Virus record (IMG/VR): IMGVR_UViG_3300025151_007895
Coordinates: 1-25,524 of that record
DNA: 25,524 nucleotides
Direction: 5' to 3' (one strand)
Origin: a virus
Below, piece by piece: positions 4,385 through 9,733 of this stretch. The notes beneath the pieces were generated by a model. It had not been told where the DNA came from. It ran no database searches and worked only from the letters and a program-made list of their open reading frames with translations. The translations under genes and the position numbers were made by a program. The first letter of the stretch is position 1; each line of letters opens with the position of its first letter.

Positions 4385-5397
4385 TTAAATTCCTTATATC
4401 TATGTGCTTTAAAACAACTGTTTTGTGCTCCTGTAATAAATTCGTTTAGCGGGCTAGGATATTCTGCAAACTCAGGAATAACATATTCCCATACAGTTTC
4501 TCCCTCGGGTGTAACTTCAAACAATCTACCAAATGCACTTTCACAAATAAATGTGTTGCCATTCCACAGACGTTGTACACTGCCCATATATGGACTAAAG
4601 AAAGCAGGAGGCATATCATCTACATAACTCCAAACAACTTCCTTTGTATCTATATCAAACTCTGTAATTCTACTGTGGTGTACACCTGGTGGTCTAATAT
4701 TTCCATTACAAAATGTTAGCAATGTTTTATCTAGTGTAACAACAGGACAATGTTGTTGTGCAACGTCTGGCCATTTTACTTGCCATACAACTTCTTTGGT
4801 GTCTCTGTCAACTCCAATAATACCGCTGGTGTTACGCAAGCTCATATAAATTGTTTTGCCACTGTAGCACACCCCGTTGATCATTGGCCAATGATTATCT
4901 GGCATACCTGCGTGGCAAGGAAAGTCTTCTTCTGTGATATGTTCCCAAGCACACCATTCCCAAACTGTTTCGCCTTTTCTATTGACCATACGCACAATGT
5001 CACTGTATCTTCCCATTTGGTATTCAGCCGCCGCCACATACAATAATCCATTATCTAGCCATTGAGCATCGTGGTGTGCATATGGATCTTCGTATTCCCA
5101 TACAATGTCACTGTTTTTTGTTGCTTCCATAAAGTGACCACCGTGCCATATATCCCAAGGAGGATAAAGATCAACACTAGTATTATGGCTACCATTGTAA
5201 CCCAAGTTACCGTTTTCTAATAACACTGCATCTCTTCCAGGACGCACAGGCATATTCCATTCGTGTACTAGTTCGCCTCCATCATCAATAAGAGGTACAC
5301 GCCCTCCGCCAGTTTGTGGAGCAAACAGTGTATAACCACCTGCTGTTTTGCTATCCCAATGTGTTAATCCTAGTTTTCTTCTTGCTACTGTTGTCAT
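4381..5397 (-). CDS. arylsulfotransferase-like beta-propeller protein
   Basis: A 338-aa protein. The start is the ATG at 5397 (MTTVARRK), which overlaps the permease stop (ATGA). The sequence is a repeated beta-propeller: six blade-closing motifs of the type V-W-E-Y recur (VHEW, VWEY, VWEW, VWQV, VWSY, VWEY), as in arylsulfotransferase (ASST)/PQQ-like propellers. Many His residues are scattered at ASST-like loop positions (GSHN, AHHDAQW, GVHHSR). ASST enzymes move sulfate between phenolic esters in the periplasm, but no signal peptide is seen here, so either it is cytoplasmic or the fold has another role. It sits between the importer genes and the two oxygenases, which ties it to the processing of the imported compound. 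Confidence 0.72.
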   Translation of the reverse strand: MTTVARRKLGLTHWDSKTAGGYTLFAPQTGGGRVPLIDDGGELVHEWNMPVRPGRDAVLLENGNLGYNGSHNTSVDLYPPWDIWHGGHFMEATKNSDIVWEYEDPYAHHDAQWLDNGLLYVAAAEYQMGRYSDIVRMVNRKGETVWEWCAWEHITEEDFPCHAGMPDNHWPMINGVCYSGKTIYMSLRNTSGIIGVDRDTKEVVWQVKWPDVAQQHCPVVTLDKTLLTFCNGNIRPPGVHHSRITEFDIDTKEVVWSYVDDMPPAFFSPYMGSVQRLWNGNTFICESAFGRLFEVTPEGETVWEYVIPEFAEYPSPLNEFITGAQNSCFKAHRYKEFK

Positions 5398-6158
5398 TGT
5401 TCGCTCTCGTGCCATTTGTGTAATAAGTACCAACCTACAGTTGATACTGTCATAAAGAATGCAAAGCCCAACATTGTAGCTGTGAGTATAAGTGCCATAA
5501 CCAATGATGTTTCTAAGTTTGCTTGTGCATATATAATTTGTACTCCAAGTCCTCCTGCTTCACTGCCACTACCAATAATAAATTCTCCAACAATAGCACC
5601 GATAACACTTAGTCCTGCACTGATTTTCATACCTGCTATAATATTTGGTATTGCGGCAGGAAAACGTAATTTCATAAAACTAGTTATACTGTTTACTTCG
5701 TGGTAGGCAAAAAGCTCTACAAGTGTTTTACTTGTGCTTTTTAGTCCTAGTAGTGTGTTGTTTATAATAGGAAACAGTGCTATAATAACACTGATAATAA
5801 TAATACTTTTGATTTCAAATCCAAACCAAAGCACAATAAGTGGTGCGACTGCAACAACTGGTACTGTCTGTAATAAGATTGCATATGGATATAAACTGCG
5901 TTCTAGTATTTTATTTAGACTCATTATGGTTGCTACAGTTATTCCTAGTACAGTAGCAATAGCATATCCTGTTAGTGCGGCTCTACTTGTAAGTCCTAGC
6001 CCTGTCATAATAATGTCAAAGTCACTAACAAATGTTTGTGCTACTGCCCACGGTGTTGGCAGTAAGAAAGCCATATCATATGCTAATGCGCCTAAATGCC
6101 AACCTCCAAGAAACAGTACAAGAATCAACACAGGTGGTATAATCTTTTTTACTTCCAT
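5394..6158 (-). CDS. ABC transporter permease (SsuC/TauC/ThiX type)
   Basis: A 254-aa polytopic membrane protein with about six hydrophobic segments. The cytoplasmic-loop signature of binding-protein-dependent permeases is visible around residues 164-200 (LRFPAAIPNIIAGMKISAGLSVIGAIVGEF). The length is normal for this family. It overlaps the ATPase stop by ten bases and the propeller start by four. It forms the channel of an importer for a sulfonate-, nitrate- or pyrimidine-like solute, together with the two upstream genes. Confidence 0.92.
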   Translation of the reverse strand: MEVKKIIPPVLILVLFLGGWHLGALAYDMAFLLPTPWAVAQTFVSDFDIIMTGLGLTSRAALTGYAIATVLGITVATIMSLNKILERSLYPYAILLQTVPVVAVAPLIVLWFGFEIKSIIIISVIIALFPIINNTLLGLKSTSKTLVELFAYHEVNSITSFMKLRFPAAIPNIIAGMKISAGLSVIGAIVGEFIIGSGSEAGGLGVQIIYAQANLETSLVMALILTATMLGFAFFMTVSTVGWYLLHKWHESEQ

Positions 6159-6853
6159 AATCTTAACTTCTCTGATATTTCGTTCACCAGTTTGCTAAAC
6201 TGAGGTTTGCTTCTAATATCTGGTGTTCTTTGTTTAAATGGTATGTCTACAATGTGTGTGATCTTGCCTGGACGTGGACTCATAACAACAACTCTGTTGC
6301 TGAGATAAACTGCTTCAGCAATATTGTGTGTTACAAGTATCGCAGTAAACTTGTCACGCTTCCACATATCATATAGTTCTTCTTGCAGGACTTCTCTGGT
6401 TAGTTCGTCAACTGCACTTAGTGGCTCGTCTAATAGTATGTATTCTGGGTCCAATACCAAACTACGTGCTAGACTCAATCTCATTTTCATACCGCCACTG
6501 AGCTGATGAGGATAACTTTTTTCAAATCCGCTTAGTCCTACTTGACGAAGTGCAACAGCGGCTTTGGCTCTTTTATTTTCAATGTGTTCTAATTCCATTA
6601 ACAGTTCAACATTTCCTTGTACAGTACGCCAAGGCAACAATGCACTGTCTTGAAACACAAAAGCACCTTTGCTAGGTTTGTTTACCTTGCCTGGTGAATC
6701 AACTAAGTCTGCAATAATTCTGAGTAGGGTAGACTTGCCACAGCCTGAAGGTCCAACAATACTGATGAACTCGCCTGTGGCAACGTCTAAGTTTACCTCA
6801 GCTAGTGCTTGAACTTCGTCGAAGTGTTTTGTTACTTCACTTACTTCAATCAT
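6149..6853 (-). CDS. ABC transporter ATP-binding protein (SsuB/TauB type)
   Basis: A 234-aa nucleotide-binding subunit with Walker A at about residues 34-42 (GPSGCGKST), a Q-loop in VFQDSALLPWRT, the signature LSGGM, Walker B with catalytic Glu in ILLDEPLSAVD, and the H-loop His in LVTHNIAEA. All catalytic residues are present, so it should be active. It is 12 bases downstream of the binding-protein gene and overlaps the permease. It energises import through the inner membrane. Confidence 0.95.
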   Translation of the reverse strand: MIEVSEVTKHFDEVQALAEVNLDVATGEFISIVGPSGCGKSTLLRIIADLVDSPGKVNKPSKGAFVFQDSALLPWRTVQGNVELLMELEHIENKRAKAAVALRQVGLSGFEKSYPHQLSGGMKMRLSLARSLVLDPEYILLDEPLSAVDELTREVLQEELYDMWKRDKFTAILVTHNIAEAVYLSNRVVVMSPRPGKITHIVDIPFKQRTPDIRSKPQFSKLVNEISEKLRLWK

Positions 6854-6865
6854 AGCTGGTTCTTA

Positions 6866-7801
6866 TCACTCGCAGTTAGCAAGGAATGATAAGTTATATG
6901 AACTTGATGCATCAAAGTCAGCTGGAACCATATCAACTTGCTTTAACTGTGCTGATAGTTCTTCCCAACGTTCTGATTTCATACAGCCAAGTTTGCTGTA
7001 ATCCTTTGGAAGGAAGTCTGCTTTCATAAGTTCAATAGCACCCATATGGATGTCTCTTGTTACTTTCTTAGATTTACTAAGAATAAGATCCGCAGTTGGA
7101 TCTGGGTTGTTGAGTGACTTTGCAAAAGCGGCTCTCAGTCTATCTACAACTTCTTGTACTAGTTCTGGGTTTTCGTCAATCATTTTTTGTGTGGTGAATA
7201 GCACACTATAAGGTCTGTAGCCTAATGACTCAAGTGTAATTTGATCAGTTGCTACGCCTTGTGCGGCTAATCTTGCAGGAAGGAAAAGTGAATAGCCCTG
7301 TTGGAACATTTCTTTTTCTCTTGCAAACAATGCTAGATCGCCTTTGAGTGGGAACTCATCAGCACTTACACCATATTCTGCTTTTACCCACTTCCAATAA
7401 GTAACACCCATTTTTACTGCAAAGCGTCTACCGTCCAAGTCTTGGATAGTTTTGATGCCTTGATCTGGATGGAATACAAGTGTATATGGAACGTGGTCTA
7501 GATTAGCAAATACCGCAACTAGTCCTGCACCTTTGGCGTTTGCCGCCATTACTGAATCTGAACCTTGTAGGCCAAACTCAACTGAACCAGCGGCAGTTTG
7601 GGCGGCTGTATTAATACCAGGACCACCTGCTTTGACGTTGATTTTTAGATCGTGTTCGTCGTTATCTAACATAGCTTGCCAGAAAACACTTTGGTTACCT
7701 TGTGGGAACCAATCCATAAGAAGTGTTACTTCTTTTGCTTGAGCAGTAGCAGCAAATAATAGTGATACAGCACTAACTGCCAGTAGTTTAAATAGTTTCA
7801 T
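6866..7801 (-). CDS. periplasmic solute-binding protein, NMT1/THI5-SsuA family
   Basis: A 311-aa precursor. I place the start at 7801 (MKLFKLLAV), just after an AAGGA box. The frame stays open 16 codons upstream, but those would extend a clean signal peptide. Residues 1-22 form a Sec signal ending ATAQA. The mature part starts KEVTLLMDWFPQGNQ, typical of NMT1/THI5-like and sulfonate/nitrate/pyrimidine binding proteins. Further family features are the GGPGINTAAQTAAGSVEFG region and VTYWKWVKAEYG. The ligand cannot be read from sequence. It is the first gene of the importer operon and lies directly downstream of the tmRNA, with no clear promoter of its own. Confidence 0.9.
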   Translation of the reverse strand: MKLFKLLAVSAVSLLFAATAQAKEVTLLMDWFPQGNQSVFWQAMLDNDEHDLKINVKAGGPGINTAAQTAAGSVEFGLQGSDSVMAANAKGAGLVAVFANLDHVPYTLVFHPDQGIKTIQDLDGRRFAVKMGVTYWKWVKAEYGVSADEFPLKGDLALFAREKEMFQQGYSLFLPARLAAQGVATDQITLESLGYRPYSVLFTTQKMIDENPELVQEVVDRLRAAFAKSLNNPDPTADLILSKSKKVTRDIHMGAIELMKADFLPKDYSKLGCMKSERWEELSAQLKQVDMVPADFDASSSYNLSFLANCE

Positions 7802-7859: not shown

Positions 7860-8225
7860 AGTGCAACTATTCTGTTCCTAGGTTAGTTGCCAACCCGACA
7901 GCATTATGCCGCTAAGGCGTAATCTGAAGGTGCAAAATTATCGTTTGCATTTGTGTTTTGTAAACTTGCCTATATGTCGAAACCTATTTCGCCCCCATCA
8001 TAAACACACTAGGATCAACATAGCCTAGTGCATATGCTATTCCCATTTCTATACCTAGTAAGACTACAAGTCCTAAGACTGCAACACTTACTGCCATAGG
8101 TAGAAATATAAAGTCTTTCCAAGTTCTTTTTCTTGTGCAACAACTACTCAAGTTATCTCCAATGTGTTTATGGTGGAGGCGTCCGGTACCGCCCCGGAGT
8201 CCATATAAACGTTCTAACGCTTACC
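7860..8225 (-). ncRNA. ssrA: permuted two-piece (alphaproteobacterial-type) tmRNA
   Basis: Transcription order is acceptor piece, intervening segment, coding piece. Acceptor piece (about 8215-8171): GGAC, T-stem TCCGG/CCGGA around a 7-nt loop GGCGGTA, then CGCCTCC-A-CCA with CCA encoded. Coding piece (about 7996-7860): starts GGGGGCG, which pairs with CGCCTCC including a G3-U70 wobble, the alanine identity element. Then comes the conserved GGTTTCGAC, the tag frame at 7948-7904 (ANDNFAPSDYALAA plus stop), and an H-type pseudoknot with stem GCAACTA/TAGTTGC (7890-7884 with 7869-7863). A helix between pieces, CATATAGGC (7976-7968) with GTTTATATG (8210-8202), confirms the two halves belong together. 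It rescues stalled ribosomes and tags peptides for proteolysis. The alpha-type permutation points to the host lineage. Exact piece ends are estimates. Confidence 0.93.
7984..8151 (-). CDS. possible 55-aa membrane protein inside the tmRNA intervening segment
   Basis: The spacer between the two tmRNA pieces is about 174 nt and holds an open frame with a TTG start at 8151, five bases after GGAG. It encodes a basic N terminus with CC (SSCCTRKRTWKD), one strong hydrophobic helix (about residues 14-34) and a short tail, and it ends in TAG inside the 5' end of the coding piece. The ordered layout of SD, basic segment and helix argues for a real protein. The non-ATG start and overlap with the RNA argue against. 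No family is recognised. Confidence 0.4.
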   Translation of the reverse strand: MSSCCTRKRTWKDFIFLPMAVSVAVLGLVVLLGIEMGIAYALGYVDPSVFMMGAK

Positions 8226-8348: not shown

Positions 8349-9215
8349 ATGACGCAACTAATCTCACCCACAAAGTTCACTAAGACAGTTGGCCTTTTAA
8401 GGTCATTTTTTTTGGACAAAGGTTTTGAAGAAGTACACACTCAAAACAGACTTTCAATACTTGCCGCTTGTGAAGATCCATTCAATGTAGCAACTTACAA
8501 TTACGCAGGCCAGGTGTGGCCGTTGCCGCAAACAGGCCAAATGTGGTTAGAACACGAATTATTAAGTAGCCCCGATAGTAAGGGGTTTTTTTGTGTCTCC
8601 ACTTCCTACAGACAGGAACCAAATGCGATTCCAGGCAGACACGATATAATATTTCCAATGTTTGAATTTGAATTTCCTGGCACTATTGATGATCTTAAAG
8701 CAATGGAATATGAATTGTGCGAGTATTTAGGTTTTGGTAATATTACAGAAAAAACCTACGAAGGTTGGCAAAGACATTATAACTTAGATGCAAATGCAGA
8801 ACTAGAAGCAGAACACGAAAATGCTATGGGCAAAACATTTGGGCAAGCAATGATAACAGATTTTCCAGAATTCACTTCACCATTTTGGAATATGAGTAGA
8901 TACGATAATGGAGTTCATAGTAAAAAAATTGATGTTATATTAGGTGGTATGGAAACTATTGGAAGTGCTGAACGTAGCACAGATGTAGAAATGATGCGTG
9001 ACACTTTTCATACTATCACAGATGGAGCATATAGTAATTTGCTATACGAACTATTTGGAAAAGATAGAGTTGAAGCAGAACTTGAAAAGTTTTTAGAGTT
9101 TGATTTCTTTCCTCGCGTTGGCGGTGGAATAGGAATGACAAGAATGATAGCGGCTCTGGATACAAGAGTGCAAGACAAAGATCCATTTGTCAAAGCAGTG
9201 GCCGCTGTAGCTTAG
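8349..9215 (+). CDS. stand-alone class IIb aaRS-like catalytic domain (AspRS/AsnRS-like)
   Basis: A 288-aa protein with the class II synthetase core: motif 2 (SYR88QE90 then GRHDIIFPMFEFE), the AsnRS/AspRS-like segment DVILGGMETIGSAERSTD (about residues 195-212), and motif 3 with GGGIGMTR265. The upstream segments ACEDPFNVATY and TGQMWLEHELL also align by eye with AsnRS. The usual N-terminal OB-fold anticodon-binding domain is missing (AsnRS/AspRS are about 430-600 aa). Known core-only relatives include asparagine synthetase A and archaeal AsnRS-like paralogues that make amino acids, and others that modify RNA or proteins. The start at 8349 follows AAGGAG. It is the only plus-strand protein gene and is followed after 6 bases by a tRNA, so the two are probably co-transcribed. 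Confidence 0.85.
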   Translation: MTQLISPTKFTKTVGLLRSFFLDKGFEEVHTQNRLSILAACEDPFNVATYNYAGQVWPLPQTGQMWLEHELLSSPDSKGFFCVSTSYRQEPNAIPGRHDIIFPMFEFEFPGTIDDLKAMEYELCEYLGFGNITEKTYEGWQRHYNLDANAELEAEHENAMGKTFGQAMITDFPEFTSPFWNMSRYDNGVHSKKIDVILGGMETIGSAERSTDVEMMRDTFHTITDGAYSNLLYELFGKDRVEAELEKFLEFDFFPRVGGGIGMTRMIAALDTRVQDKDPFVKAVAAVA

Positions 9216-9221
9216 AGTTAA

Positions 9222-9322
9222 TCTGGGGTGGTGGAAAAGGTAGACACGCACGACTGTTTATCGTGTGGTAGATGTACTGCAATATATTTACCGTGTAGGT
9301 TCGAGTCCTACCCCCAGAGCCA
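9222..9322 (+). tRNA. tRNA with GUU (Asn) anticodon and very long variable arm
   Basis: A complete cloverleaf. Acceptor stem TCTGGGG/CCCCAGA (9222-9228 with 9312-9318), discriminator G (9319), CCA encoded (9320-9322). D arm GTG/CAC with GG-T-A in the loop. Anticodon stem CACGA/TCGTG (9249-9253 with 9261-9265). Loop CTGTTTA puts GUU at 9256-9258, the Asn anticodon. T arm GTAGG/CCTAC with loop TTCGAGT. The variable region (9266-9294) forms a 10-bp stem, GGTAGATGTA/TATATTTACC with two G-U pairs and a 6-nt loop. Normal tRNA-Asn has a short variable loop; long arms belong to Ser, Leu, Tyr and Sec tRNAs. Position 37 is U rather than the A expected for t6A. G73 fits Asn or Ser, not Leu. Confidence 0.88.
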
Positions 9323-9324
9323 AG

Positions 9325-9495
9325 TTACCACTTAGCCGCGCTTATTTTACGCATATTGCGTTGTGATTTTATAGCATTCAGACAGTTCAATATCTTACGT
9401 TGCTTTTGAAATGGTCTTGAGTAACCATTTTTATTTTGCCAGGTTTTGTCTTGTTCTATTTCTTTACTAAGAGCTTCACCTAGTAACTTTTCCAT
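9325..9495 (-). CDS. small protein of 56 aa, unknown
   Basis: I place the start at 9495 (MEKLLGEALSK) because GGAGGAGG lies about 11 bases upstream. Longer starts in the same frame would run much deeper into the preceding gene. The peptide is basic toward the C terminus (RNMRKISAAKW). It overlaps the upstream gene by 20 bases and ends three bases from the convergent tRNA. It is the last gene of the HAD operon. No family is recognised. Confidence 0.55.
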   Translation of the reverse strand: MEKLLGEALSKEIEQDKTWQNKNGYSRPFQKQRKILNCLNAIKSQRNMRKISAAKW

Positions 9496-9733
9496 TAACG
9501 TAAGTTCCTCCTCCGTTAATGCCGCCATTTGTCTTGATTCCATTCTGTCTGTCACTCCATTCTTTTTCAAACTGTTCTGCATAGTCATACAAAGGTGCGC
9601 CATTGGCACCATCATACCAAAGGCGTTTAAAATAACCTTCTGCACTTTGCATAACTGTTTCAGGGGATGCGTCGAGATGCCCTTTTACCATATAAAAAAG
9701 TCGATACTCTTCTTTTAGATCATTTCTCAGCAT
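9476..9733 (-). CDS. 85-aa hypothetical phage protein
   Basis: A soluble protein starting MLRNDLKEEYRLFY, aromatic and acidic, with a glycine/asparagine-rich tail (NGGINGGGTYVNG). No family is recognised. It lies about 46 bases downstream of the 87-aa gene in the HAD operon and overlaps the next small gene. Confidence 0.6.
   Translation of the reverse strand: MLRNDLKEEYRLFYMVKGHLDASPETVMQSAEGYFKRLWYDGANGAPLYDYAEQFEKEWSDRQNGIKTNGGINGGGTYVNGKVTR

Follow-up and report, generated by a model that had tools for sequence, protein, structure and literature searches.

Structure of the tmRNA gene

The window analysed here (WIN in pairwise comparisons) is a whole contig of 25,524 bases, an IMG/VR virus record with T4-like genes. 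On its minus strand, at 8224-7860, cmscan with Rfam identified both halves of a permuted two-piece tmRNA of the alphaproteobacterial type. The full RF04321 model (tmRNA_permuted) matched 8221-7904 with 71.6 bits against a cut-off of 47, and the full RF01849 model (alpha_tmRNA) matched 8263-7860 with 70.7 bits against a cut-off of 50, so that in the covariance search suggested as a check by an earlier sequence-only reading of this DNA both models lie above cut-off. ARAGORN missed the tmRNA when run on the window. The 3′ piece (8224-8171, delimited by cmscan, acceptor and T-arm pairing and the P2 duplex) carries the 3′ strand of P2 (8224-8203), the T arm (8198-8182), the 3′ strand of the acceptor (8181-8175), A8174 and an encoded CCA (8173-8171). 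The 5′ piece (7996-7860, delimited by cmscan, acceptor pairing and the P2 duplex) begins with G1 at 7996 and holds the acceptor 5′ strand (7996-7990), a D-like loop, the 5′ strand of P2 (7975-7960) and, inside the cmscan match, a tag frame (7948-7904) that encodes ANDNFAPSDYALAA, has the hydrophobic end expected of a tag and closes with a TAA stop at 7904. Further 3′, a pseudoknot (7895-7863; GGTT/AACC with GCAACTA/TAGTTGC) was read by eye within the alpha_tmRNA match. The acceptor helix across the pieces, GGGGGCG/CGCCTCC, has 7 of 7 pairs including G3-U70, and the T arm has 5 of 5. The permuted halves, the acceptor helix with G3-U70, the tag frame and the pseudoknot after the tag, all proposed from the letters alone, are thus borne out. 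The P2-like helix is also present across the pieces, but duplex prediction gives 8 bp plus 6 bp where 9 bp had been stated. The earlier description did not contain the 174-nt length of the segment between the pieces, its 12-bp end helix or the ORF nested in it. We found no group I intron in this tmRNA, the T arm being unbroken and the Rfam scans of the window returning no intron family.

Promoter, 5′ piece and tag compared with other tmRNAs

For comparison, viral contigs were scanned with a pattern that picks ANDN[FY]AP-type tags. At least 120 contigs carried it, which makes such tmRNA genes common in IMG/VR. Of 385 alphaproteobacterial genomes 359 matched; 50 of these and one other formed the bacterial set, and 8 were later chosen for their long segments. 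Unresolved loci (14 of 120 in the tag scan and 5 of 51 bacterial) were dropped before counting. Most tmRNAs in the comparison come from metagenomic contigs. Loci are denoted by L numbers, and it may be noted that the same IMG/VR contig stands under two such ids in L124/L291 and in L125/L290.

Upstream of the tmRNA we read by eye a promoter on the minus strand (8259-8229) consisting of TTGACA (8259-8254), a 17-nt spacer and TATAAATA (8236-8229), and the latter doubles as a T4-type late core. The promoter scanner passes over it, since its rule requires the sixth base of the second hexamer to be T. Among the 120 viral tmRNAs for which enough preceding sequence was available, 62 have TATAAATA within 70 nt of the T arm on its upstream side, as opposed to none of 44 bacterial ones. 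The claim of a promoter overlapping a T4-late core holds, in a phage-style form. The contrast supports a late, phage-controlled expression of the tmRNA; part of this contrast may stem from base composition.

The distance from G1 to the tag is 48 nt in the window, where P2 runs straight into the tag and leaves no space for PK1, whereas it is 83-88 nt in all 44 unique bacterial tmRNAs. Among 121 unique viral tmRNAs it is 46-50 nt in 36, 51-70 nt in 12 and longer in 73. As the window does not have the PK1-bearing 5′ piece of bacteria, we file its tmRNA as a phage variant. The P2 duplexes of the short class have a mean of -9.35 kcal/mol with their own partner and -7.63 kcal/mol with that of another member, a modest predicted advantage of the own partner.

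The window tag is found in at least 6 other viral contigs among the 120 matches listed in the tag scan. Neither this tag nor the short 5′ piece occurs in any of the 44 unique resolved bacterial tmRNAs. Their presence in many marine phage contigs and absence from this bacterial set suggest a long phage history, and the idea that the phage took the gene from its host lineage finds no support here; the proposed comparison with candidate host tags gave no match in the same set. Tags of the ANDNFAPVALAA type occur in some small-genome alphas, which hence share with the window only the ANDNFAP start. Inferring the host from the tag was accordingly dropped. In L289 the predicted tag is unusually long, with 29 residues (ANDNASNVFSFVDFSNARKYVNEDFAIAA).

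Phage context and the question of the host

The contig holds ribonucleotide reductase, PAAR protein and phage exonuclease families, which together with its IMG/VR virus record agrees with the placement of the tmRNA among phage-type genes. The tmRNA had also been taken to mark an alphaproteobacterial host, and this was not upheld. NrdA of the window is nearest to that of Synechococcus phages (about 71%). Also, according to the accessible part of PMC9004378, an alpha-type two-piece tmRNA is carried by phage Melnitz, which infects OM43. Since this is not an alphaproteobacterium, the host cannot be read from the alpha type. A ThiY-like protein was tried as a host guide and discarded (63% to a Chloroflexi MAG contig and a weak Celeribacter match).

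Two other regions of the window were recorded. An ABC transporter (NMT1/THI5-type binding protein, permease and ATPase) and an arylsulfotransferase-like gene occupy 4386-7784, in place of which about 1.1 kb is present in L124 and L125, contigs otherwise 98-99% identical. At 8349-9319 lies a gene for a 288-aa AsnRS-like protein that matches only the class II catalytic domain (PF00152), directly followed by a tRNA with a GUU anticodon and a long variable region of 29 nt, which ARAGORN misreads as tRNA-Asp(atc). With a strict script, a GUU tRNA (variable region of 13-37 nt, within 300 nt) was found at 44 of 81 AsnRS-like loci, and Prochlorococcus phage P-SSM2 has the same pair. The two may form a synthetase-tRNA pair private to marine phages.

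The intervening segment and its nested ORF

Between the two pieces lies a segment of 174 nt (8170-7997, minus strand), and its place predicts that the mature tmRNA lacks it. The two ends of the segment pair with each other (8170-8159 with 8012-8001) in a helix of 12 bp that stops 4 nt before G1. A Shine-Dalgarno motif GGAG (8160-8157), with its GG inside this helix, stands 5 nt before the start codon of an ORF of 55 aa (8151-7984, minus strand). This ORF starts with TTG, and the last base of its TAG stop is nt 13 of the mature 5′ piece. By eye, the encoded protein has a basic N-terminus followed by a hydrophobic stretch. No Rfam riboswitch was found in the segment. Taken alone, the segment gives a shuffle p of 0.02 for the open frame, and most single loops are likewise not decisive by themselves.

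The ORF has relatives at 20 loci, of which 7 lie in tmRNA segments (L286-L291 and L294) and 13 stand alone as 45-aa genes, whose stop mostly overlaps the ATG of the next gene (TAATG or TGATG). L286-L289 have ATG where the window has TTG. Between WIN and L124 we counted 15.5 synonymous differences over 33.5 sites and 15.5 nonsynonymous differences over 119.5 sites (pN 0.130, pS 0.463, Fisher p 7e-5). The comparison with L286 (3 nonsynonymous and 0 synonymous changes) has too few differences to judge, and that with L287 gives pN/pS 0.85 on 4 differences. Judged by these substitutions, the nested ORF is under purifying selection. A tblastn search with a composite of the family against 50,697 phage records gave no match. 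A separate stand-alone ORF of the window (9476-9733) is 51% identical over 37 aa to an ORF nested in the tmRNA segment of L063.

Segment genes in other phages

Of 58 unique viral segments with a length of 95 nt or more, 47 hold an ORF that spans 70% or more of the segment, where 7.4 were expected from shuffles that keep both segment ends; some of the 58 were taken from scans selected for their ORF or SD content, and the tag-scan subset alone gives 31 of 40 with 5.4 expected. For segments of at least 140 nt the count is 30 of 32 against 2.2. The 47 ORFs form about 23 families by blastp, start with ATG (36), TTG (10) or GTG (1), and have an SD-like motif in 31 cases and none in 16. Two weak members, L284 (shuffle p 0.735) and L049 (0.23), look like chance. 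Among the 11 long segments below the ORF threshold, L308 and L316 share a segment type of 388 nt, which in L308 seems to contain a coupled pair of shorter ORFs. Two coupled ORFs are likewise apparent in L337, whose tmRNA has no Rfam match and is the one exception among 27 submitted loci, the other 26 being confirmed.

The coding nature of these frames is also seen in their substitutions. The ORFs of L011 and L043 differ by 33 synonymous and 9 nonsynonymous changes (p 3e-21), a synonymous excess is present in 7 of 7 pairs hand-picked for Fisher tests, and pN/pS is 0.03-0.55 in most ORF pairs, three pairs having no synonymous change. The L011-type ORF has 290 relatives; in the best 80 of these loci it is inside a segment in 11, beside a tmRNA in 1 and with no recognised tmRNA nearby in 68. 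One segment cargo matches Pfam DUF6356 (E 4e-11), while matches of others to DUF2061 (1.8e-4) and HNH (3.5e-4) fall just under the cut-off. In L110 (12406-12922) a 327-nt tmRNA segment encodes a 104-aa HNH-like protein, which might promote the spread of the cassette.

Of 90 viral segments with 60 nt or more, 87 have a terminal helix of 7 bp or longer (17.1 expected). The helix mostly occupies the same position, straight after CCA and 4-5 nt before G1, and its sequences are diverse. It is best read as a processing hairpin, which in the window covers half of the SD. The 44 unique bacterial segments measure 2-74 nt. The 8 chosen as long were resolved at 11-165 nt; by eye most of them are hairpin-like and none has an SD-led ORF. 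In one long segment of bacterial origin, L322, an open frame beginning with ATG extends through the 92-nt hairpin.

Exchange of the segment as a cassette

The segments of WIN and L286 are 98% identical, against 57% for the leader, 64% for the T arm plus acceptor and 41% for the 5′ piece. When L286 (1,872 bases) is compared with the window by blastn, nothing matches except the segment and a few bases next to it. The translated comparison shows weakly similar genes elsewhere, pointing to distantly related phages. The reverse pattern is seen with L124, where the flanks are 97-100% and the segment 82% identical. Segments at least 85% identical with 5′ pieces at most 72% identical were found in 12 pairs from three ORF families. 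An ORF up to 98% identical despite strongly differing tmRNA halves means that the segment has been swapped as a cassette.

Relation to known systems

The accessible part of PMC9004378 gives a count of 53 two-piece tmRNA structures in phage genomes, 50 of them from marine or aquatic phages, so the basic tmRNA finding in the window belongs to a known kind. A blastn search of the window tmRNA against phages gave no match at 1e-5; at E<=10 Melnitz came first, and this Kyanoviridae myophage is the best isolate match, with a permuted alpha-type tmRNA. It differs in its long 5′ piece, with 82 nt ahead of the tag where the window has 48, and, unlike the window, has a glutamine riboswitch downstream of the tmRNA. 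Such a riboswitch (RF01739) is also present just downstream of the tmRNA in L021, L053 and L283. Melnitz too has an ORF in its segment, of 142 nt, for which there is no CDS in the record and no mention in the accessible part of PMC9004378.

Permuted bacterial tmRNAs share with the window the gene order, the acceptor with G3-U70, the T arm, the tag and an excised intervening sequence (RF01849, RF04321; accessible part of PMC11915505), but their segments are short (up to 165 nt even among those chosen as long) and by eye hold no SD-led ORF. In its accessible part the same paper describes a tRNA-Ala gene in one bacterial segment and a repetitive element in another, and mentions no protein gene. 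It also describes, there, tmRNA genes with group I introns bearing homing endonuclease genes, which likewise have a protein gene in the removed part. These differ in that removal in the window, which has no such intron, would be by tRNA-type processing, and that the cargo of phage segments is mostly small hydrophobic or uncharacterised proteins. We found no published account of protein genes in permuted-tmRNA segments in the main text of openly accessible journal papers, and nested segment genes are not described in the accessible parts of PMC10117765 or PMC4131195.

Proposed mechanism and alternative explanations

We consider it very probable that the locus yields a dual transcript, tmRNA precursor and mRNA, and that its spacer is an exchangeable cargo site of phages. 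A late-type phage promoter would give one transcript serving at once as tmRNA precursor and as small mRNA. Through the acceptor stem and the segment-end helix the precursor would be folded into a single long hairpin; RNase P would then generate the 5′ end at G1 (7996), and the CCA end would arise through trimming by other nucleases. The two mature pieces would stay joined through the acceptor and P2 helices, and the product, as its anatomy predicts, would be an ordinary alanine-charged tmRNA that rescues ribosomes with host SmpB. The segment thereby discarded carries a Shine-Dalgarno and the gene of a small hydrophobic protein, and phages have exchanged cassettes in it, probably by recombination at the conserved flanking tmRNA sequences.

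The same structure could be an ordinary two-piece phage tmRNA whose long segment is a spacer or processing hairpin with an ORF by chance. The hairpin-like form of most of the 8 long bacterial segments (by eye), the strong conservation of the terminal helix and the fact that an open frame is not rare in a single short loop fit this, but the excess of ORFs over the shuffles, the synonymous excess in all the picked pairs, the stand-alone homologues and the DUF6356 match do not, so we regard it as very improbable and already largely refuted. It is barely credible that we are dealing with host DNA, whether misassembled into the contig or part of a prophage, or with a dead remnant of a tmRNA. The adjoining transporter genes are bacterial-like, but the virus record and its phage families argue otherwise, the same arrangement recurs in L124 and L125, where the tmRNA flanks are 98-99% identical, and all helices and the tag are intact.

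ArfA is made from an mRNA that loses its stop codon by RNA cleavage. The window ORF may similarly lose its stop, 13 nt past G1, by the predicted cleavage, although the two proteins are unrelated and the stop position varies among segment ORFs. In such a switch the cut at G1 would remove the stop, leaving a nonstop mRNA whose product is tagged by the mature tmRNA, and the full protein would be made only if processing lags. The position of the window stop, stops past G1 in 21 of the 47 segment ORFs and the SD lying partly within the terminal helix favour this reading. The other 26 stop before G1, as does L294 of the window's own ORF family, and this logic cannot therefore be general; as an account of the locus we rate it unlikely. 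With this split we hold the cargo bay to be general and a feedback to be possible for the window's class only. A combination, in which the spacer is an exchangeable gene bay and, in the class with the stop at +13, maturation destroys the stop and the new tmRNA tags the nested protein, is doubtful to a like degree. If true, the small protein would accumulate only once ribosome rescue is saturated.

Implications

Under the preferred reading, that of a dual transcript with an exchangeable cargo site, the waste segment of a structural RNA gene is a slot for protein genes exchanged among phages, with a frame that can run into the functional RNA, and the maturation and translation of the phage tmRNA would compete directly. 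The phage tmRNAs without PK1 offer a natural set of such molecules. Current annotation hides short genes within tmRNA features, and the cultured phage Melnitz probably has one of them; the segment slot would be a route for the spread of small phage genes.
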